Position numbers and translations under genes: made by a program | Shown here: positions 2,715-28,806 of the stretch, in pieces | Layout: each line of letters opens with the position of its first letter | Numbering within the stretch: position 1 is the stretch's first letter | Notes under the pieces: model-generated | What the model saw: only the letters and a program-made list of their open reading frames with translations | Told to the model about the DNA's origin: nothing | The model's database searches: none | Virus record (IMG/VR): IMGVR_UViG_3300027902_000025 | Coordinates: 1 to 28,979 of that record | DNA length: 28,979 bases | DNA from: a virus | Reading direction: 5' to 3' (one strand)

Positions 2715-3614
2715 ATGGGAAGAGTGCATTTTGAACCTCCAGGCGTGGATTTTGAACTGCCAATTGGGACTAAATGTATTAATCTTTATAAAAAAGTGCC
2801 ACCATATATGCGTTCCCAAAATGGGTACGGATACCCGGGAATTTTATTGGAGAAAGATGGGAAAATCCAATGTCATATTTGTGGAGAATGGTTTGAGCAG
2901 TTGGCTCCTCACGTTTTTCCTATTCATAAAATCAATATACCGGAATATAAAAAAAGGTTTGGTTTTCGCAAAAAAGATGCACTTATTAATTCAAAATTAA
3001 AAGAAATACGCAAAAAGATAGGTATATGTTGTTCAAAATATATTAGGAAAATAGGCTCGGAAAACTATGGTCATCGTCAAAATCATAGTTATCTCACAAA
3101 AAGTTTACCCATTGATTTTGTTGCCGACGAAATAATTTTTAGATCGAAAAAACCAATGGCATCATTGATTGAAGAAGGATTGTGTCCTGCTCAGAGAGAT
3201 GGACGATTTGATGTGATTGCAAAATTAAAAAAACAACCGACAGAATATGATGTTGAACAAGAAGATATGCCTCTCTTATCACAAATTTTAAAAGATTACG
3301 GTTCTTTTGAAAAGTATATTAAATTTCGTAAAACCGAACGTAAATATCAATACAAAAAGGCTTGGGACAAAGCACGGAGGGAAAAATCAGAGTCTCTTGT
3401 TTCTATGGAAGACCTTAGGTTGGCCGCTAAAAAAATGGATGATTATTTTATGATTGCGAGTATTCGAAATTTATACAAAACAAAAGGCCGAGTAACTATA
3501 CAAGATTTTGACGTATATCCATCACATGAAACAGTTTGTAAAAGGTTTGGTAATTTAGAAAATGCTTTACGTGAATCCGGAATTGATCCAGCAACATGGA
3601 CAATGGTGGGATGA
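2715..3614 (+). CDS. MucR/Ros-like zinc finger protein with homing-endonuclease-associated repeat
   Basis: A strong AAGGAGGAG ribosome binding site precedes the ATG. Around residues 50-80 the segment IQCHICGEWFEQLAPHVFPIH followed by EYKKRFGF matches the shape of Ros/MucR zinc fingers (C-x2-C, then H-x4-H and a Y-x-x-x-F/W-G helix). The last 60 residues contain PSHETVCKRFGNLENALRESG, the pattern of the HNH-endonuclease-associated repeat that binds DNA. No HNH, LAGLIDADG or GIY-YIG catalytic motif is visible. The gene is clearly more A+T-rich than its neighbours on either side, with many AAA and AAT codons, which suggests recent acquisition. Likely a DNA-binding regulator or a catalytically reduced homing-type element; its stop is flush with the primase start. 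Confidence 0.65.
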   Translation: MGRVHFEPPGVDFELPIGTKCINLYKKVPPYMRSQNGYGYPGILLEKDGKIQCHICGEWFEQLAPHVFPIHKINIPEYKKRFGFRKKDALINSKLKEIRKKIGICCSKYIRKIGSENYGHRQNHSYLTKSLPIDFVADEIIFRSKKPMASLIEEGLCPAQRDGRFDVIAKLKKQPTEYDVEQEDMPLLSQILKDYGSFEKYIKFRKTERKYQYKKAWDKARREKSESLVSMEDLRLAAKKMDDYFMIASIRNLYKTKGRVTIQDFDVYPSHETVCKRFGNLENALRESGIDPATWTMVG

Positions 3615-6600
3615 ATGTCCGACTTCGAGCGCGTAAAAGAAAAAATCGACCTTCTGGATTTTATCAACTCCGAGACGTCCGGAAGCCTGAAGGACCGCAG
3701 GCCCGGGTCTTGCCCGCTCTGCAAACACAATGATTGCTTCAACGTGGACCGCGACAAGGGTCTCTGGAAGTGTCATTCCTGCGGCGAGGGTGGGGACATG
3801 ATCACGTTCCTGGAGAAGAACAAAAACCTCGATAAGGGCGCGGCGCTGAAGTATGCGGCAGAAATAGCCGGCATTACGCTCGAGCAGAGGCCTGCCGTCG
3901 ACGCGAAACTCGATTCTCGTGAACGGCGGGAGAGCCTTCAGGAGAAGATCTACCGATTGGCCGCGGATTATTATCATGCGGCCGCTGCTGTAGATAATTC
4001 TCCGGCAAAGGCCTGGTTCTGCAAAAAGCGCGGGCACCGGCCCGAGACGTTCCTCTCCATGCGCGTGGGCTGGTCCACGGACGGACTGGTGAAATATCTG
4101 GAAGAGCAGGGCATCAAACCCGAGGACGTCCTACGCTACGGCCTGGGCAAGAACAAAGACAAGGACGGCAACGAGGTCCCGATCAAGGATTATTTTTGGC
4201 AGGGTCTCGCGTTGTTCCCGGTTTTCGATTCCGAAGGGACCGTCATCAACATCAAATCCAAGGACCCGGATAAAAAATATCCGGGAGTGCCGATTGCCGA
4301 CGTTAAGAAGACATGGTTCCTGCACAACGAGGTCCTGGGCAAGCACCAGGACCTGTTTGTTGTTGAGGGCGAGAACGACGTGGCCAGCCTGCTGGATGCG
4401 GGATGTGAGAACGTCCTGGGCACCGCCGGCGCGCCCGGGAAAGACCAGGCCCTGGAGCTTCGGAAGTTTTGCTCGAACAAGACGGTGTATCTCTGGTTCG
4501 ACCGGGACAAGCAGCCGGCGTTCGATCGCACGAAGCTGGACGGCAACGGCGGCGCGCATCATATACGGTTTTTATACCGGCAACTGTCGGACAGCAGCGT
4601 GAAGGTGCGTATCATTGTCCACCCGGGCGCAGGCAAGGATCCCGATGATTTTATCCAGATGCTTTTTCGGGCCGGGAAGACTCCCCAGGAAGCGCGCCAG
4701 GCTGTCAAGGACCTCAAGAATACCGCCGTAGAGCCGTTGACCTGGGAGCTGGACCAACTGAAGGACTACGACGAGTCCAGGGAACGCCTCGAGGCATTCA
4801 AGCTCCGTAAGCTGCCGCAGGCGATCACGGCCATGGCGTCCTCTGCCGATCAGGAGGTGGCGATCGACACGGCCGCGAAAGCCGTGGGCATATCGATCAA
4901 GGCGATCGAGGAGTTGGTGGCTAATTCCGCCGATCTCTATCCGCTTCTGTCCGATGCATTCAAGGGCAAGATCAAGGAGGCCGATCCGTTGCACCTGGCT
5001 GAGTTTATTTTCCGCTGGTTCGGGAACGGCAGAGGCGCCCGGTTTTTCAAGACCCGAGACATGAAATTCCATCTGTTCTACCAGCGGAGCATTTATGAGA
5101 TCGGGAACAATCCGAACTTCAACACACTGATGCAGAAGCTCACGCGCCTGGCAGCGGTGGAACGCCCAGGAAGCACGGTCTGGTACTTCCTGACGAACCT
5201 GTGCAACATGCACGGCGAGGTTGTGGACCTTATGTCCTGGATCTATACTGATCGCGCCAGCGATACCATTTACGCGAATCTCAATAGTTCCCACAACAAG
5301 ATACTCCGGCTCGAGCCGGGCAAGGACCCCGTGGTGGTCGACAATGGCACAAACGAGCAATCCGTGCTCCTTACCTCCAGCAACCAAATAAGACAATTCG
5401 AATATTTACACGACACCAGCGAAGCCGAAGGCTTTCGCGCGCTAAAATCGCTTTTGATGGATACCTTGCCGGCCGAGGGGCCGCAGAAATATTTCTATGC
5501 GTGTTGGATCATCTCCGTTTTCCTCATGAATTTTCAGACCGACCGGGGGTTGATGCAGATCATCGCGGGCACACAGATCGGCAAGTCAAAGGCCGCGGAG
5601 CGCGCGTCTCAACTGATCTACGGCGAGAGTTACGTGGGCAAAGGGACCGGCGCCGCGGAGACCCGGGTCGCGATCCAAAATCCGCTGATCTTTCTCGACA
5701 ACGTGGAAAACAAAAACCTGCTCCAGGGCACGATCGACTTTCTTCTTTTCGTTGCGAACAGCGCGCAACGGCCGAAGGCGAAAGCCGGGTCCGATACGGA
5801 AGTGCTTTATCAACGGCTGAATAGTTTTGCGATGATCACGTCGATCGAGGCGTTCCCCGGCCGGCTGCCGGAGCTGATCAACCGAACATTTCCACTGATC
5901 CTCGAGAAACAATATCGTCAGCACGGTTATATGCATGACGAGTGCATGGGCGAGATCTTGAAAAAGAGGAATGTCATTCTTTCGGCGATCTTCAAGATGA
6001 TCACGCGAAACGTGCTGCCGCGGCTCGCGGAGCGGAAGGATTGGTCGAAGCATCTGCAGACCGTGCACCCAGGGCACAATAAAGAGCGGAACAACGAGCA
6101 CATCTGCACCATGCTGCTGATCCTGGAAGGCCTGCTCGAATATATCCCCTACACAAAAAACGAAACGCCGATCAAGAAGCAAGCGGCCGAGCTGCTCGAT
6201 AAATGGATTACCTACCAGGAGGAGCAGGCCCGGGAGACGGCGCTTACGTCGAACACGCTGCTTTCGAAGATGGACGGCCTGGCCAGGGAGATCTGGGTCA
6301 AGATGCGCGGCCGGGACAACCTGGATTATCAGGTCCATTCGGAATTTAAGGATGTGAAGGTGAAGGTCTACGACGATCCCGAATACGTCGAGACGTTCTA
6401 CCTGACCGAGCCGAAGGAAGAGTTCAGCGAGGAGACGGATGAATTTAAGGAGCTCTACCAGCGGCTCGAGCTTATCATCCCGGCGCCGAGGTTGCAGACG
6501 CTGTTGACCCGGTACTGTGCCTCGATGCACGAGCGCACGCCGTTTGAAACCGCCACGGCCCTGGCCGCGCGGATCCGCGACGGCAAGCAGGTTATGGAGG

Positions 6601-6713
6601 CGGGCGGCTGGGAGTATATCACCCGGGGAGACAACGAAGGCCTGAACCAGTACAAAAAAGTGCACGGGATCAGGTATTGGAGGTTCTCTAAACGGCTGAG
6701 AGTCGGCGGCTAA
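3615..6713 (+). CDS. Bifunctional DNA primase-helicase
   Basis: This 1032-residue protein starts with a zinc-binding primase finger (CPLC at 33-36, CHSC at 53-56, then GEGGDMITF). A TOPRIM domain follows, with VVEGEND (Glu251) and WFDRD (Asp296, Asp298), the metal-binding residues of DnaG-type primases. The C-terminal half has a Walker A motif GTQIGKS at 652-658 and a Walker B LIFLD at 691-695, so it carries an NTPase that is probably the replicative helicase or origin-unwinding ATPase. The fusion resembles plasmid and satellite-phage replication proteins in layout. It lies immediately upstream of the GGGGGCACAT repeat block, the natural place for its target origin. The ATG follows the previous stop directly. 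Confidence 0.85.
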   Translation: MSDFERVKEKIDLLDFINSETSGSLKDRRPGSCPLCKHNDCFNVDRDKGLWKCHSCGEGGDMITFLEKNKNLDKGAALKYAAEIAGITLEQRPAVDAKLDSRERRESLQEKIYRLAADYYHAAAAVDNSPAKAWFCKKRGHRPETFLSMRVGWSTDGLVKYLEEQGIKPEDVLRYGLGKNKDKDGNEVPIKDYFWQGLALFPVFDSEGTVINIKSKDPDKKYPGVPIADVKKTWFLHNEVLGKHQDLFVVEGENDVASLLDAGCENVLGTAGAPGKDQALELRKFCSNKTVYLWFDRDKQPAFDRTKLDGNGGAHHIRFLYRQLSDSSVKVRIIVHPGAGKDPDDFIQMLFRAGKTPQEARQAVKDLKNTAVEPLTWELDQLKDYDESRERLEAFKLRKLPQAITAMASSADQEVAIDTAAKAVGISIKAIEELVANSADLYPLLSDAFKGKIKEADPLHLAEFIFRWFGNGRGARFFKTRDMKFHLFYQRSIYEIGNNPNFNTLMQKLTRLAAVERPGSTVWYFLTNLCNMHGEVVDLMSWIYTDRASDTIYANLNSSHNKILRLEPGKDPVVVDNGTNEQSVLLTSSNQIRQFEYLHDTSEAEGFRALKSLLMDTLPAEGPQKYFYACWIISVFLMNFQTDRGLMQIIAGTQIGKSKAAERASQLIYGESYVGKGTGAAETRVAIQNPLIFLDNVENKNLLQGTIDFLLFVANSAQRPKAKAGSDTEVLYQRLNSFAMITSIEAFPGRLPELINRTFPLILEKQYRQHGYMHDECMGEILKKRNVILSAIFKMITRNVLPRLAERKDWSKHLQTVHPGHNKERNNEHICTMLLILEGLLEYIPYTKNETPIKKQAAELLDKWITYQEEQARETALTSNTLLSKMDGLAREIWVKMRGRDNLDYQVHSEFKDVKVKVYDDPEYVETFYLTEPKEEFSEETDEFKELYQRLELIIPAPRLQTLLTRYCASMHERTPFETATALAARIRDGKQVMEAGGWEYITRGDNEGLNQYKKVHGIRYWRFSKRLRVGG

Positions 6714-6764
6714 TTTTTTTTATTCTGAGAGGTTCAATTATATAGGGGAGCATTTTTAGGAATG

Positions 6765-6782
6765 ATGTGCCCATGTGCCCCC
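6765..6782 (-). repeat. Left inverted pair ATGTGCCC + ATGTGCCCCC
   Basis: ATGTGCCC (6765-6772) runs directly into ATGTGCCCCC (6773-6782). Together they are the exact reverse complement of the first 18 bases of the right-hand cluster at 6950-6967, so the block is bounded by an inverted repeat. Confidence 0.85.
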
Positions 6783-6830
6783 TAATTTAAAATAATATTT
6801 AATTATCAATTAGTTAAGTGTTAAAAAAGT

Positions 6831-6884
6831 GGGGGCACATATGGGGGCACATTGGGGGCACATGGGGGCACATTGGGGGCACAT
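6831..6884 (+). repeat. Five direct GGGGGCACAT iterons
   Basis: Copies lie at 6831-6840, 6843-6852, 6854-6863, 6864-6873 and 6875-6884. Start-to-start spacing is 12, 11, 10 and 11 bases, close to one DNA turn, so bound proteins would sit on one face of the helix. Confidence 0.9.
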
Positions 6885-6901
6885 AACGATAGTGTCGGTT
6901 T

Positions 6902-6911
6902 ATGTGCCCCC
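6902..6911 (-). repeat. Inverted iteron ATGTGCCCCC
   Basis: A single reverse-orientation copy opens the second A+T-rich module. Together with the direct copy at 6950-6959 it repeats the arrangement formed by 6773-6782 and 6831-6840. Confidence 0.85.
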
Positions 6912-6949
6912 TTTAAAAATATTAAGTTTATCAAGTGATTAAGTCGTCA

Positions 6950-6983
6950 GGGGGCACATGGGCACATGGGCACATGGGCACAT
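6950..6983 (+). repeat. Right cluster: GGGGGCACAT plus three GGGCACAT
   Basis: GGGGGCACAT (6950-6959) is followed without gaps by GGGCACAT at 6960-6967, 6968-6975 and 6976-6983. The 8-base period differs from the 10-12-base spacing of the central cluster. Confidence 0.9.
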
Positions 6984-7027
6984 TAAAAATGCTCGGGTAA
7001 AAAGGAAAGGGGGAAAAAACAGGATAT

Positions 7028-8041
7028 ATGCTACTTTTGGAGTACATTCACTGGCTTGAGCGCAACCAGGCAGCCGAAAAGACGATAAAAAACTATTCGA
7101 ACAAGGTACGCATCTTCGTTGAATGGCTGGAACCGCAGAATATCGGCGTGCCCGAAGTGCACCCAGATCTCGTGTTCACGTTTCACAATCATCTGATGAT
7201 CGATCGAAAACAGAAGCCTGCAACCAGGACGACGTATCTGCGGGCGCTGCGAAGTTATGGAGATTTCCTGATCACGCAGGCGATATTCAAAGAAAACCCT
7301 TTCCGAGCGGTGGCCATGCCGAAGATCCACAAGGTGCCCCCGGACCAGCTCGATGAGGAAGAGATAGCCAAGATCATGAATGCGGCGTTCGAGAAAAAAA
7401 ACGAAAAGGGCATGCGGGACCTGGCGATCATCGCGGTTCTCGCCGGCACAGCCTGCAGAGTGAGCGCGTTGATCGGGATGAAAATCACGGACTTTAGGCC
7501 CACGGTAGAAACGGTTCCGGAGAACTGTCAGCATTGCGGGCAATACATCACGTCCGGAAGACTCGCCGGCCGCGGCAAGAAGGTGAAGATGACGATGGTG
7601 CGGATCCGCGAGAAGGGCGGGAAAGAATGGGACGTGATTGTACCGGAGAAGGCAGCGTTTTATTTACAGCAGTATTTGAGCGCCAGAAAAATTGGAGTTA
7701 ATTCAGACATTGTGTTCCCGACCGTGCGCAACAAAGAGGTCAGGGCGATCAGCAGGCATGGTGTGCTCACCATGGTGAAGGTCCTGTCCAGGAAGGCCGG
7801 GCTTACAAGGAAGATATCGCCGCATTCATTCAGGCATGCAGCCATTACCTGGTGGCTGGATATCGGCATCGATCCTGAAGTAGTGCAGCGATGGGTCGGA
7901 CATCGAGCGTTGTCACAGACGATGGAGTATCGCAATAAATCAATCCGATCGTTTGTCTGGAGCGGAATTGCGATGGATCGGAACCTGTTAAATCATGTGC
8001 ATACGCCGATGGACATCATATTTAAAAAGATGAATGGATAG
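7028..8041 (+). CDS. int: Tyrosine recombinase / phage integrase
   Basis: The 337-residue protein has an N-terminal SAM-like core-binding domain (about residues 1-95) and a catalytic domain. The catalytic residues are visible: Arg144 in TACRVSAL, Lys196 in REKGGK, His266 and Arg269 in PHSFRH, His292 in RWVGH and the nucleophile Tyr301 in TMEYRN. A short insertion after the first catalytic Arg carries CQHC (167-170), a possible zinc knuckle that ordinary Xer-type recombinases lack. The ATG is preceded by AGGA at 7021-7024. It would perform site-specific integration and excision, or dimer resolution. Its placement directly after the iteron block fits an attP-int arrangement. A remnant of a related gene lies at 8633-8776. 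Confidence 0.9.
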   Translation: MLLLEYIHWLERNQAAEKTIKNYSNKVRIFVEWLEPQNIGVPEVHPDLVFTFHNHLMIDRKQKPATRTTYLRALRSYGDFLITQAIFKENPFRAVAMPKIHKVPPDQLDEEEIAKIMNAAFEKKNEKGMRDLAIIAVLAGTACRVSALIGMKITDFRPTVETVPENCQHCGQYITSGRLAGRGKKVKMTMVRIREKGGKEWDVIVPEKAAFYLQQYLSARKIGVNSDIVFPTVRNKEVRAISRHGVLTMVKVLSRKAGLTRKISPHSFRHAAITWWLDIGIDPEVVQRWVGHRALSQTMEYRNKSIRSFVWSGIAMDRNLLNHVHTPMDIIFKKMNG

Positions 8042-9049: not shown

Positions 9050-9391
9050 ATGGGTCGAGAAGATGATGGGTTGCGGATTGATACCTGGGCTGAGATTGAA
9101 GAACTGATTGCCCGCGAGGCCGAGAATAAGTTCGCGGCGCAGATGCTCGATGTCGATCGTGCCCGTTCATATGCTCTTGAATTTGCCGCGACCACCGTCC
9201 GCACGATCTGTTCGATCCTCGGAGGGCAAACCGTTTATGTTCCATATCTCGCGCGGCACCATCGTGAAGAACGAGATAGGCAGATTTGCATGAACTTTCA
9301 CGGCGTGTGTAAGGACTCGGCGCGCGAGGTCGGGTTATCGGTCAGGCAGACCCGCAGAATCGTGGGGAAAAAAGTGACATCTTCATCTTAA
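9050..9391 (+). CDS. Mor/C-family transcription activator
   Basis: The 113-residue protein ends with GGQTVYVPYLARHHREERDRQI, then an ARE-x-GLSVRQTRRIVG helix-turn-helix. This is the layout of the Mor/C activators of phage Mu: an N-terminal dimerisation region, a GGxxxYxP beta strand that inserts into the DNA minor groove, and a C-terminal HTH. In Mu, Mor switches on middle transcription and C the late genes. Here it stands alone between the integration and terminase modules, so it most likely activates the assembly genes downstream. A GAGGG-like ribosome binding site precedes the ATG. Confidence 0.85.
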   Translation: MGREDDGLRIDTWAEIEELIAREAENKFAAQMLDVDRARSYALEFAATTVRTICSILGGQTVYVPYLARHHREERDRQICMNFHGVCKDSAREVGLSVRQTRRIVGKKVTSSS

Positions 9392-12590: not shown

Positions 12591-15038
12591 GTGGGTGGGA
12601 GCCAGAATTTGGTAAAGGCAAAAAAGAAGATGATGGTTGCTACCACAAAAATGGCAGAGACCAAAACCAAGCGCACGCCGCCCAAACCCGGCGCCGAGGT
12701 TGCCGCCGTCCTTAATCCCCTGAACCCCTTCGCGAACTGGACCGGCAGGTTCGAATGGCTCCGCGCATACAACCCCGATGAACTCGTGCGGGACAAAGGC
12801 CGCGGACTCAAGATCTACCAGGAGATGACGCGCGAACCTTTTGTAAAAGCATCATTGCAGCAAAAGGTCACATCCTTATTGGCCGTACCCTGGGATGTAA
12901 AGCCGGCGTCCGCTGACGCGGACCACCTTATCCATGCCGACTTTGTCAAGTGGAACCTGAAAAATCTTCGGGGCGGGTTTGCACGCGATATCTGGGAAAT
13001 GTGCGACGCCCTGGTCACCGGGTTTTCCCTGCTCGAAAAAGTATGGGACATCGTGCCGGACGGGACCTATGCGGACAAGGTGCAACTCGTCGCGCTCAAA
13101 TCGAAAGACCCGTTTTATTTCGGGTTCGATTTCGACGAATTCATGAACCTGAAACCGAACGGCGTGGTCATGGCGTTTGCCGCGAACGGGGCCACGAACA
13201 TCCCGCTGCCGTCGGAAAAATTCTTTATTTTCTCATTCCTCAAAAAATACGAGAATCTCTACGGTCAGAGCGATCTGCGCGCCGCGTATCGAGCGTATTG
13301 GATCAAAGACACGGCGTGGAAGCTCCGCGCGATCTACATGGAGCGCTTCAGCGGGAACACGCTGAAAGGAAAATATCCACGCAACAACAACCAGGCCCTG
13401 AACAAGCAGGCGCTGCTCGATATTTTCAAATCCTGGCAACTCGAGACCGGCGTGGCCATCCCCGACGACATGGAAATAGAAGTCATGCAGGTGGCCACGT
13501 CCTCGGATTCCGAATATGCCCGGGCCATGGCGGACTGCAACAAGGACATAGCCGTCGGGATTCTTGGAGAATCGCTCACACTCGATGAAGGCCGCAAGAC
13601 CGGCGCCCGGAACATGGGCGAGATCCACAAACAGGTTGTGGAGCTCTTCATTCAATTCCTCGACATGGTCCTGACCGCGGACATCAACGAGCAAATTATC
13701 CGGGACATTGTTGACTATAATTTCCCCGGCGTGACGGACTATCCGGAATTTTATTGGTACTCGCGCGAGGATTACGATCCGCTCACGTTCGGCCAGGCAA
13801 TTGCCTCCTGGCAGACCGCAGGGGTAGAGGTGTCAAAATCCTGGTTCTATGAAAAGACCCGGATGCGCCTGCCGAATGGGCCCGATGATATTTTGAAACC
13901 GATGGCCGCTTCAGCGCCATCACCAGGAGGAGCGTTCGGAGCTAAAAGTCCGGAGTTGGGAGCTAAACCAACAGCAACGGACGCATCATCTCAGGCACAG
14001 CAATCGACTAAACTCGCGGAACCGGCGCCGCAGGATTCAAAATTAAAAATTCAAGATTCAAAGGGCGGATATTTTCGTGATCTCTCGAAATGGGAAACAT
14101 TCGCCGAGATCCCGAAGGTGGACAATCGCCTAAAGATGCTCGAGGACAAAGCCATTGCCTTGTCGCAGCCGGCGTACGACCAGATTTTTAAAAATATCCT
14201 GTCGCAGATAGAGAAAAAGGACGTCCTCGCATCCAAAGATTTTGCGGCGGCCGCGAAGATCGCCGTGAATCCGTCGTTGCTCAAGGGCGTTATTTTCCGC
14301 ACTATCCTGACCGCGAATATGCTCGGTCGCGCTGACGGAGTGATCGCCGCACAGAACCAGGGGTTCAATTTCGGGAAGATACAGAAGTTCGCGGAGATAG
14401 GGTTCGACTGGTCGCTTATGGACGGACCATTCACTCCGGAAGACGCGGCGAAATTTTTCTCCGGCAAGGTGCCGATGACCAAGGATGAATACGACGCGCT
14501 GGTCCAGCAATTAATGGACCAGGCATTCTATGTCGCCGGCCTGGACAAGACATCCATTGAACGAGATGTGCAGACGTTACTGACCGACGCGCTGAACAAC
14601 GGCATGTCGCTCGATACGTTCAAATTCAAGCTGAACGAGCTCCAGGTAAAATACGTAGAACCGGTTTATGAACGTGCGGGAGTAGGCCAGGCCTCGGCCG
14701 ATGACACGGTGCTCGACTATCACGCCGAGACCGTGTTCCGCACGAACTTGATGAGCGCCTACAACGAGGGCCGCGCGGCTCTGTATGACGATCCTGATGT
14801 GAAAGAATTTTTCCCGGCATACGAGTATACGGCGATCCTGGACGGCAGGACCACGGAGATATGCTCCGAGCTCGACGGCATGGTCCGCCTGGCTGATGAC
14901 CCGGCATGGGACAAGTTCTGGCCGCCGAACCATTTCAACTGCCGCAGCACGGTGATCCCGATCAATAAATATGATTTTACGCAGGACATGATCACCGACG
15001 TTCCAAACGTCGCACCCCAGGAAGGGTTTGGAGGATAA
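12591..15038 (+). CDS. Portal (Mu gp29/DUF935-type) fused to MuF head morphogenesis domain
   Basis: Residues about 50-430 match the Mu gp29-like portal family: KIYQEMTREPFVKASLQQK near the start, then GFSLLEKVWD, a YGQSDLRAAYRAYWIK helix and GESLTLDEGRKTGARN. After a variable linker (about 440-490), the C-terminus carries a MuF (Mu gpF) domain with AETVFRTNLMSAYNEGR, DGRTTEIC, LDG and PPNHFNCRS. In Mu these are separate genes, F being a minor head protein; portal-MuF fusions are known in other phages. The start is uncertain: GTG at 12591 abuts the upstream stop, TTG at 12609 has a GGGAG site at the right distance, and ATG at 12630 is a third option. Confidence 0.88.
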   Translation: MGGSQNLVKAKKKMMVATTKMAETKTKRTPPKPGAEVAAVLNPLNPFANWTGRFEWLRAYNPDELVRDKGRGLKIYQEMTREPFVKASLQQKVTSLLAVPWDVKPASADADHLIHADFVKWNLKNLRGGFARDIWEMCDALVTGFSLLEKVWDIVPDGTYADKVQLVALKSKDPFYFGFDFDEFMNLKPNGVVMAFAANGATNIPLPSEKFFIFSFLKKYENLYGQSDLRAAYRAYWIKDTAWKLRAIYMERFSGNTLKGKYPRNNNQALNKQALLDIFKSWQLETGVAIPDDMEIEVMQVATSSDSEYARAMADCNKDIAVGILGESLTLDEGRKTGARNMGEIHKQVVELFIQFLDMVLTADINEQIIRDIVDYNFPGVTDYPEFYWYSREDYDPLTFGQAIASWQTAGVEVSKSWFYEKTRMRLPNGPDDILKPMAASAPSPGGAFGAKSPELGAKPTATDASSQAQQSTKLAEPAPQDSKLKIQDSKGGYFRDLSKWETFAEIPKVDNRLKMLEDKAIALSQPAYDQIFKNILSQIEKKDVLASKDFAAAAKIAVNPSLLKGVIFRTILTANMLGRADGVIAAQNQGFNFGKIQKFAEIGFDWSLMDGPFTPEDAAKFFSGKVPMTKDEYDALVQQLMDQAFYVAGLDKTSIERDVQTLLTDALNNGMSLDTFKFKLNELQVKYVEPVYERAGVGQASADDTVLDYHAETVFRTNLMSAYNEGRAALYDDPDVKEFFPAYEYTAILDGRTTEICSELDGMVRLADDPAWDKFWPPNHFNCRSTVIPINKYDFTQDMITDVPNVAPQEGFGG

Positions 15039-27160: not shown

Positions 27161-27844
27161 ATGGCTATAGTTCCTAGAGCAGCGTATTCAGCGGAATCGA
27201 ACGCAGTCGCCAGCGTAGTCGTGCAGGCCGATGATTTAATTGTCGTCATATATAGTTTTGGTGTTAATGCAACGCCGACATGCTCGGACAATGCAAATGG
27301 TGGAACGAATACTTATACGCAGGCGGGCATTTCTCAGGGAACTGCGGATGGAACTGCTTGCACCGTCATAAGTTTTTGGGCAAAAGCAAAAGCGAGTGAG
27401 ACGCTTACTATAACATGCACATCCGAAACTGCCCCTGTTATCGCGGTGCATGTTTACTCGGGCGCAAATATAACTGCTCCGGTTGATGGATTTACAGCCA
27501 AGACCGATTCATCCGACACCACGTCTCACACATCAGGCACGGACAATACGGGCAACGCAAACGATGTGCTTGTTTGCGGATGGTATCAGATCAACACCGC
27601 AGAAACCCCGACAACGAGCGGCGGATGGACGCGGAGAACGCTTCAAAACTCAGGATATGGGGAAACGGCATGCAGTTGTGATTATATCGTATCTTCCACC
27701 GGGGCCTATAGCTGCCCCTTGAACGGAACGTACAGCGTTGAATATGTCAGTTTGATTGTAGGGTTCAAAGCGTTGGACGGCGGCGGGCGGTATACGGTTC
27801 CCGGGCTTAATGTCCCGGTTTTTAACAAGCAAGGTGAAACATAA
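27161..27844 (+). CDS. Fibre-region beta-rich protein
   Basis: The 227-residue protein is rich in Thr, Ser, Ala and Val: SVVVQADDLIVVIYSFG, TCSDNANGGTNTYTQA and CTVISFWAKAKASETLTITC read as a beta sandwich like those in phage surface proteins and some secreted adhesins. No catalytic motif is visible. It overlaps the next gene by one base. Confidence 0.65.
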   Translation: MAIVPRAAYSAESNAVASVVVQADDLIVVIYSFGVNATPTCSDNANGGTNTYTQAGISQGTADGTACTVISFWAKAKASETLTITCTSETAPVIAVHVYSGANITAPVDGFTAKTDSSDTTSHTSGTDNTGNANDVLVCGWYQINTAETPTTSGGWTRRTLQNSGYGETACSCDYIVSSTGAYSCPLNGTYSVEYVSLIVGFKALDGGGRYTVPGLNVPVFNKQGET

Positions 27845-28806
27845 TGTCGGTAATGAATATAAAACTTGTTGATCCAACAACAGCGCCGGGCGGCGGAGCT
27901 GCTGCCCTTGCGGCTTCTGTTTCCTGCGTTGTCACGGTCAGCGCAGCACTCACAACCTCGATCCCCCTGGCCTCCTCGGTATCCTGCGTTGCAACGATCA
28001 GCGCCCAACTCACCACCTCTATCAACCTGGCGTCTTCGGTGGCCTGTGCAGTCACGATCAGCGCCCAACTCACTACCTCCATCAACCTGGCGTCTTCGGT
28101 GGCCTGTGCAGTTACGATCAGCGCCCAACTGACGACGTCGATCACCCTGGCATCCTCGGTGGCCTGCGCGGCAACGATCAGCGCCCAGCTCACGACGTCG
28201 ATCACCCTGGCATCCTCAGTGACCTGCGTTGTCACGATCAGTGCAGCACTTACCACAGCGATCACTCTCTCGTCGTTCGTATCCTGTGTATGTACAATCA
28301 ATGCGACGCTCACGTCGGGGGCCGATACTGCTTTGACCGCATCTGTGTCCTGTGTTGTCACGGTCAGCGCAGCACTCACAACGTCGATTCGACTGGCTTC
28401 CGCAGTCAGTTGTCTTGCGACGACGAGTGCGGCGCTTACGACGTCGATCGCCCTGGCTTCCTCGGTGGCCTGCGCAATAACCACGAGTGCGGCGCTTACA
28501 ACGTCGATTACCCTGGCATCCTCGGTGGCCTGCATTGTTTCGATCAATACCCAGCTGACGACGTTCATTCGTTTGGCAGCCCAGGCAACCGTCGCCTGTC
28601 TCACAACTGCCGATCTGACCACCGCGATTCCTTTTGTTCTGCCGGCGCACAGGAATGTCTTCATACTGGACGATGCCTATCGGGCATTCTCGCTCGATAA
28701 AAAGTCGCGGCAGTTCCCGATCGATACGAAACAACGCTCATTCATAAACGACAAAACGCGAAGGAAATTCACACTCGATACCAAGCGGAGGGTGATCAAT
28801 GCCTGA
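27844..28806 (+). CDS. Repeat-built tail fibre-like protein
   Basis: The 320-residue protein is mainly twelve 20-residue repeats (residues 22-264) of the kind LASSVACAVTISAQLTTSIN. A cysteine stands at repeat position 7 in the first eleven copies and one or two places later in the last. The C-terminus (residues 270-320) changes to five nine-residue repeats of the kind RQFPIDTKQ. The strict repeat length suggests a beta-solenoid or stacked beta fibre. It lies in the fibre block and may be the shaft of a receptor-binding or side fibre. Repeats 3 and 4 are almost identical in DNA, so the array probably grows and shrinks by recombination. Confidence 0.75.
   Translation: MSVMNIKLVDPTTAPGGGAAALAASVSCVVTVSAALTTSIPLASSVSCVATISAQLTTSINLASSVACAVTISAQLTTSINLASSVACAVTISAQLTTSITLASSVACAATISAQLTTSITLASSVTCVVTISAALTTAITLSSFVSCVCTINATLTSGADTALTASVSCVVTVSAALTTSIRLASAVSCLATTSAALTTSIALASSVACAITTSAALTTSITLASSVACIVSINTQLTTFIRLAAQATVACLTTADLTTAIPFVLPAHRNVFILDDAYRAFSLDKKSRQFPIDTKQRSFINDKTRRKFTLDTKRRVINA
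27907..28635 (+). repeat. Twelve 60-base coding tandem repeats
   Basis: Unit LASSVACAVTISAQLTTSI at DNA level about 60 bases. Copies at 27967-28266 are most alike; copy 7 is diverged and is followed by two extra residues that shift the register before copy 8. Confidence 0.85.
28681..28806 (+). repeat. Nine-residue C-terminal repeats (R-x-F-x-x-D-x-K)
   Basis: RAFSLDKKS, RQFPIDTKQ, RSFINDKTR, RKFTLDTKR and the partial RVINA; a related RNVFILDDA precedes them. Basic beta-strand repeats of this kind may cap or anchor the fibre. Confidence 0.7.

Follow-up and report, generated by a model that had tools for sequence, protein, structure and literature searches.

The whole 28,979-base virus record IMG/VR IMGVR_UViG_3300027902_000025, of which both contig ends are cut, was analysed here and is called the window. 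A block of short repeats lies at 6765-6983 between a primase-helicase gene and a tyrosine integrase gene. It starts 52 bp past the primase-helicase stop codon and ends 44 bp before the integrase start. The block is about 220 bp long and is the only one of its kind in the window as delimited by the two cut ends. For the window, F denotes GGGGGCACAT, R denotes its complement, and the numbers between them are centre-to-centre distances. The genes and features, with their basis in brackets, are as follows.

3615-6713, + strand: primase-helicase gene, 1032 aa, the proposed initiator (Pfam, PDB profile search, AlphaFold with VIA/Foldseek)
Residues 1-440 of this protein: Zn finger and DnaG/Toprim primase (Pfam, predicted fold)
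Residues about 455-880: SaPI Rep/Cch/D5-type helicase (predicted fold)
Residues about 880-1032: C-terminal domain with winged-helix order (predicted model)
6765-6772, - strand: iteron R1, 8-bp form, outer half of the left doublet (repeat count, layout reading)
6773-6782, - strand: iteron R2 (ATGTGCCCCC), inner half of the left doublet (repeat count)
6783-6830, no strand: left spacer of 48 bp with high AT content, the proposed melting site (DUE) (composition in the window and its relatives)
6831-6840, + strand: iteron F1 (repeat count)
6843-6852, + strand: iteron F2 (repeat count)
6854-6863, + strand: iteron F3 (repeat count)
6864-6873, + strand: iteron F4 (repeat count)
6875-6884, + strand: iteron F5 (repeat count)
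6902-6911, - strand: iteron R3, a single inverted copy (repeat count)
6912-6949, no strand: right spacer, 38 bp, its length kept across relatives and its AT content not (family comparison)
6950-6959, + strand: iteron F6 (repeat count)
6960-6983, + strand: iterons F7-F9, three head-to-tail 8-bp forms where most relatives have one (repeat count, family comparison)
7028-8041, + strand: tyrosine integrase gene, 337 aa, a neighbour that probably does not bind the block (relative L009 without the block, Pfam core-binding domain from residue 5)

The word GGGCACAT occurs exactly 12 times in the window, every time within 6765-6983, against an expectation of 1.03 +/- 1.08 and a maximum of 4 in 100 dinucleotide shuffles of the whole window. 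The original prediction that the copies are not arranged at random was thus borne out; its figure of about eleven becomes an exact 12. Eight of the 12 copies are full-length GGGGGCACAT, located at 6831, 6843, 6854, 6864, 6875 and 6950 on the + strand and at 6773 and 6902 on the - strand. Elsewhere in the window we found no exact copy and a single GGGGGCACAT with one mismatch, at 7332 inside the integrase gene. The block reads R-8-R-58-F-12-F-11-F-10-F-11-F-27-R-48-F-8-F-8-F-8-F. The unit ATGTGCCCCC-spacer-GGGGGCACAT occurs twice as predicted, at 6773-6840 with a 48-bp spacer and at 6902-6959 with a 38-bp spacer, and the denser 8-bp cluster at the right side was recovered at 6952, 6960, 6968 and 6976. 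The five direct copies, with steps of 12, 11, 10 and 11, are also present, except that the first of them doubles as the right arm of the first unit. The left end of the block is an 8-bp doublet as well (6765 and 6773), a feature that had not been stressed before. The most AT-rich 50 bp of the window (6781-6830, 86%) falls in the left spacer. Cumulative GC skew climbs nearly throughout the window and was uninformative on the start site.

The protein encoded upstream of the block combines two enzymatic parts. Members of its family have a DnaG Zn finger and, in nearly all cases, a Toprim domain by Pfam. The AlphaFold model of the full protein has a mean pLDDT of 83.6, and in this model residues 103-439 match the DnaG RNA-polymerase domain with Z 23-26. 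The C-terminal part of the model (from 439-455 to 1032) matches SCCmec Cch (Z 18.8), the SaPI5 primase-helicase (Z 18.4), SaPIBov1 Rep (Z 17.2) and poxvirus D5 (Z about 16); the values of 17-19 for the Cch, SaPI5 and SaPIBov1 proteins are well above unrelated rows for single domains. By its predicted fold, the protein is a DnaG primase fused to an initiator helicase of the SaPI Rep/SCC Cch type. When modelled alone, the C-terminal 163 residues gave a pLDDT of 87.6 and the order strand-helix-helix-helix-strand-strand, which we read as a putative winged helix. Fold matches for this domain alone were weak and mixed, with the iteron initiators RepE and pi among the top rows at Z <5, tied with unrelated folds. 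Searched with the same domain alone, Foldseek returned nothing significant, and Pfam and PDB sequence searches returned nothing credible. Directly upstream of the primase-helicase gene, 2715-3614 encodes a protein that has an HNH-associated repeat and a zinc-finger part of the ROS/MUCR type.

We then asked how widely the block occurs. A scan of viral contigs with the primase as a single-sequence query found no relatives, and a nucleotide search of phage records with the block gave chance matches only. The word search that had been proposed, run as ATGTGCCCCC-N25-55-GGGGGCACAT, gave 0 matches in 2.9 million viral contigs, and the word is private to this record. A full-length homologue of the primase-helicase (34% identical) was found on a Desulfocapsa plasmid (NC_020305, L010), with GGTGCA iterons downstream of the gene in the same orientation order around an AT-rich spacer. 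An alignment of just two rows, the window protein and this plasmid homologue, brought out the family among viral and genome contigs. Since the word varies between relatives, word searches miss the block and a layout search finds it. In a word-free layout scan of the family loci with a maximum score of 10, 27 loci scored at least 6 and 14, including the window, reached the maximum, while 755 kb of shuffled sequence gave 0 matches; three further blocks (L011, L028 and L050) were recognised by allowing mismatches or by reading the sequence. The layout follows a primase-helicase homologue (27-59% identical) in 30 of the 31 loci that have the 3' end of the gene, a set that includes the near-duplicate pairs L033/L035 and L039/L040. 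The sole exception is L045, where the gene is present and a block is not visible; in L024 the contig ends before the block position. Named hosts of the relatives are mostly Desulfobacterota and related MAGs.

The consensus layout of the family is R-8-R-47-F-11-F-11-F-11-F-11-F-27-R-47-F-8-F, from which the window departs in having a left spacer 11-12 bp longer and two additional iterons on the right. The words include GGTGCAAGT, GGTGAAAGT, GGGGGAAAGT, GGGTTGAAGT, GGGTAGCAGT, GGTTGCAAGT, GGTGACAGAT and TAGGGGAAGT. The left spacer is AT-rich in all relatives (71-91%), and a search for a sequence common to these spacers gave a top 6-mer not above shuffles; the shared TTATCAA...TTAAGT, correctly noticed in both spacers of the window, is not a feature of the family. 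The right spacer is mostly 36-38 bp long across relatives, with an AT content of 34-78%. A spacer constant in length and variable in AT content argues for one melting site and a docking group at a fixed distance rather than two melting sites. The double unwinding region suggested by the original prediction is therefore not a general feature, and the corresponding spacer of an E. coli PICI has 42% AT.

Several loci vary around this scheme. In L012, L014, L036 and L039, further forward iterons separate the gene end from the RR doublet, with up to five of them in L039; the window has none there. Similar blocks occur in L027 (Calditrichia; 13100-13345), L048 (7940-8160) and L049, with GGTTAC and TGGACA as words, and the family similarity detected in their primase genes is limited to the N-terminal part. 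These three loci suggest, from their sequence, that the class of block is wider than the family studied. On the Desulfocapsa plasmid, a second and different iteron array with a period of about 21 bp (CCGAGAATGGTGATAGTT) lies at L010:16387-16725 beside a separate replication initiation gene, so that there seem to be two replicons on this plasmid, of which one is the phage-type primase-helicase together with its block.

Because the block lies between two genes, we examined which of them it accompanies. If it were a set of arm-type sites for the adjacent integrase, and hence part of an attP region, its end only 44 bp before the integrase start would be expected, and an integrase does come after the block in most relatives; in P4, moreover, attP lies between crr and int. 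The relatives of the two genes point the other way. The only close relative of the integrase among viral contigs is that of L009 (73% identical), and the 13-kb L009 locus has no GGGGCAC and no iterons; a DnaB-type helicase gene and a gene overlapping the integrase start lie upstream of the integrase there. Conversely, L028, the nearest relative of the primase-helicase (59%), keeps the layout beside an integrase that is only 23% identical. The layout kept in L028 and the iterons absent from L009 indicate that the block goes with the primase-helicase and not with the integrase. In addition, the SAM-like core-binding domain of the integrase begins at residue 5, which leaves no room for an N-terminal arm-binding domain, and in P4 the arm repeats are annotated separately, next to the iterons. 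We consider arm-type sites very unlikely. The check proposed earlier, whether the block travels with the primase or with the integrase, thus came out for homologues of the primase-helicase. The layout was neither missing beside homologues of both genes nor an unconserved expansion, and the origin reading withstood this comparison. The window and L009 also share the integrase, Mor, terminase and portal genes at 66-78% identity and have unrelated replication modules, with the exchange boundary between the block and the integrase start (6713-7028).

The layout was next compared with described origins. In SaPIs the origin follows directly after rep, and its iterons are recognised by the C-terminal domain of Rep; likewise, Cch2 uses its C-terminal domain to bind direct repeats downstream of its own gene (PMC7581432). 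In PICI origins an AT-rich region is always flanked by two sets of iterons, and plasmids were used to test the pri-rep-ori of EcCICFT073 (PMC6092414). The region 3' of the EcCICFT073 primase gene reads R-9-R-46-F-22-R-11-R-9-R-31-F-11-F-22-R-46-F-9-F, with a left spacer of 77% AT and a right spacer of 42% AT. Like the window, where the order is RR, 48 bp at about 86% AT and F5, this E. coli PICI has its origin just 3' of the initiator gene, with RR, an AT-rich spacer and F on the left and FF-R-46-FF on the right. The two differ in the middle, where EcCICFT073 has an inverted RRR group and two F and the window family has five direct F, and in the word (GGTAGACA versus GGGGGCACAT). They also differ in the carrier, a satellite in the one case and, in the other, a genome with terminase, portal, head and tail-family genes. 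Thus, the window has the PICI-type position directly 3' of the initiator gene and, by its predicted fold, a helicase of the SaPI Rep/Cch/D5 kind fused to a primase; the DnaG type of the primase part is a difference from the PICIs. SCCmec Cch2 and Cch, with their putative downstream origin, are similar in having a self-loading-type helicase, and Cch is the best fold match to residues 455-1032. Unlike the window, Cch2 is reported with only three 5-nt repeats and has a separate primase-polymerase, and an RR/F5/R/FF layout is not reported for it (PMC7581432).

For P4 we used the annotated record NC_001609 and our reading of its sequence. The P4 ori is F-10-F-11-F-22-R-43-F-10-F, and each crr repeat ends R-43-F-9-F. 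P4 also has a primase-helicase fusion (alpha), and its gene order alpha-crr-int matches the order primase-helicase, block and integrase. In form, the P4 ori equals the right half of the window block, and its iterons (GGTGAACA) are of similar build. Iteron groups of the P4 type recur with spacings of 11, 27, 47 and 8 in the family and of 27, 48 and 8 in the window. The P4 type I word GGTGAACA itself does not recur, the window having GGGGGCACAT and the relatives GGTGAAAGT, GGTGACAGAT and others. Between P4 alpha and the window protein, the Zn finger is 33% identical over 73 aa (E 1e-6); outside it no pairwise similarity was detectable, a C-terminal profile comparison was negative, and the Pfam families of the helicase parts differ. 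Whereas ori and crr of P4 are 4.5 kb apart, the window has, between its cut ends, one block of about 220 bp, which would unite what P4 splits into ori and crr. As read from the sequences, the window block shares its outer groups with the PICI origin and its right half with the P4 ori. The original prediction was aware of no described phage origin with this two-module form, but the iteron groups and their spacings are shared by PICI origins and by the ori and crr of P4 (PMC6092414), and the form of the origin itself is already known.

Given the conserved anatomy and the close match in layout to origins that have experimental support elsewhere, we conclude that 6765-6983 is very probably the replication origin of the phage, of the PICI/P4 type, with the upstream primase-helicase as its initiator. 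That protein as the binder, one of the options raised initially, is the best-supported reading of the sequences, the layout recurring next to homologues of its gene and being missing next to a close homologue of the integrase. In this model, the C-terminal domain of the primase-helicase would bind the iterons, and copies of the protein would assemble on the RR doublet and the F5 array, which flank the AT-rich left spacer. This spacer would then melt and, by analogy with SaPI Rep and Cch2, the helicase would load itself, probably as two hexamers, after which the fused DnaG primase, judging from its domains, may lay primers for the host polymerase. The composition of the right spacer in relatives suggests that the right R-47-FF would serve as a further docking group at a fixed distance and not generally as a second melting site.

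An origin could also be read by another initiator, from the host or from a part of the phage beyond the contig, with the primase-helicase loaded secondarily. The DNA-reading domain is putative and a gene beyond the cut contig ends could have gone unseen, both of which would suit such a factor. We nevertheless consider it very improbable: no gene other than the primase-helicase was found to accompany the block on plasmids and phages alike, the predicted fold of this protein places it with self-loading initiators whose own C terminus reads the repeats, and the differing words argue against a conserved host factor. An unlinked initiator, as also envisaged at first, is not needed to explain the block.

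A third explanation would give the block no role in replication, as a transcriptional operator or regulatory array for the integrase or as an RNA/G-quadruplex element. Its position just upstream of the integrase would agree with this, and the G-rich word makes 6831-6885 and 6950-6983 fit a G-quadruplex pattern on the + strand. The pattern is also found in L028, L013, L032 and L044, but 21 of the 26 loci tested do not have it, and we therefore rejected a G-quadruplex role and regard the pattern as a by-product of the word. Against regulation in general, the block can lie up to 2 kb after the primase gene (L030), and its layout agrees in detail with known origins. This explanation is accordingly given very little weight.

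We also asked which part of the protein might read the word. Residue 1015, in the wing, ranks first for association with word class among 990 columns scanned, with V/I/T in 17 of 18 proteins with GTG words and K/R in 9 of 10 others, where the classes (GTG or not) were defined after the wing alignment had been inspected. Word and wing change together between sister groups: L013 (GGGGGAAAGT) versus L034 (TGGTGAAAGT), whose proteins are 87% identical, and L032 (GGGGGAAAGT) versus L015/L038 (TGGTGAAAGT). These two word changes are separate events on a tree built without the C-terminal domain. All five informative pairs among seven phylogenetically independent ones agree with residue 1015. A tree-aware test over all columns was not significant, as some column does as well in 70 of 128 arbitrary orientations. 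In Mantel tests the word tracked every protein region weakly and none stood out after control; its correlation with the C-terminal sequence was no better than with other domains. The covariation at residue 1015, where contact with DNA is expected, is thus suggestive but not proof. Going further, and with slightly less than even confidence, we propose an undescribed and widespread class of phages and plasmids, most of them from Desulfobacterota, that would share one rigid origin grammar while the word drifts freely together with a few wing residues (at 1015, K/R without GTG and V/I/T with GTG). If true, this class would form a natural series of mutually orthogonal origins with a protein-DNA code that can be read, and would connect the replicons of phages, plasmids and satellites.

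The genome that carries the block contains gene families for terminase, portal, head protease, major head, head-tail adaptor, tail completion, minor tail and tail chaperone proteins. Its content is not the satellite gene content without a full virion set that characterises a PICI, and from its genes the carrier looks like a phage. Terminase or portal genes also occur in other members of the family, where an integrase comes after the block. A Mor-family gene (Mu middle activator) follows the tyrosine integrase at 9050-9391; the head genes are Mu-like, and no transposase was seen in the contig. At the cut right end, 27844-28806 holds a 320-aa frame of Ala/Ser/Thr/Val-rich repeats of about 24 residues with no PHROG match, perhaps a tail or surface protein. 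What appears new is a satellite-type origin in phages with their own virion genes, in which the layout is fixed and the word is free, together with the suggestive covariation at wing residue 1015; we found no description of it for this family. These findings indicate a stricter form of the satellite-type origin on a plasmid and in phages that carry virion genes. The family offers about 28 natural pairs of word and initiator, which make origin choice and the avoidance of cross-talk between related replicons directly testable.
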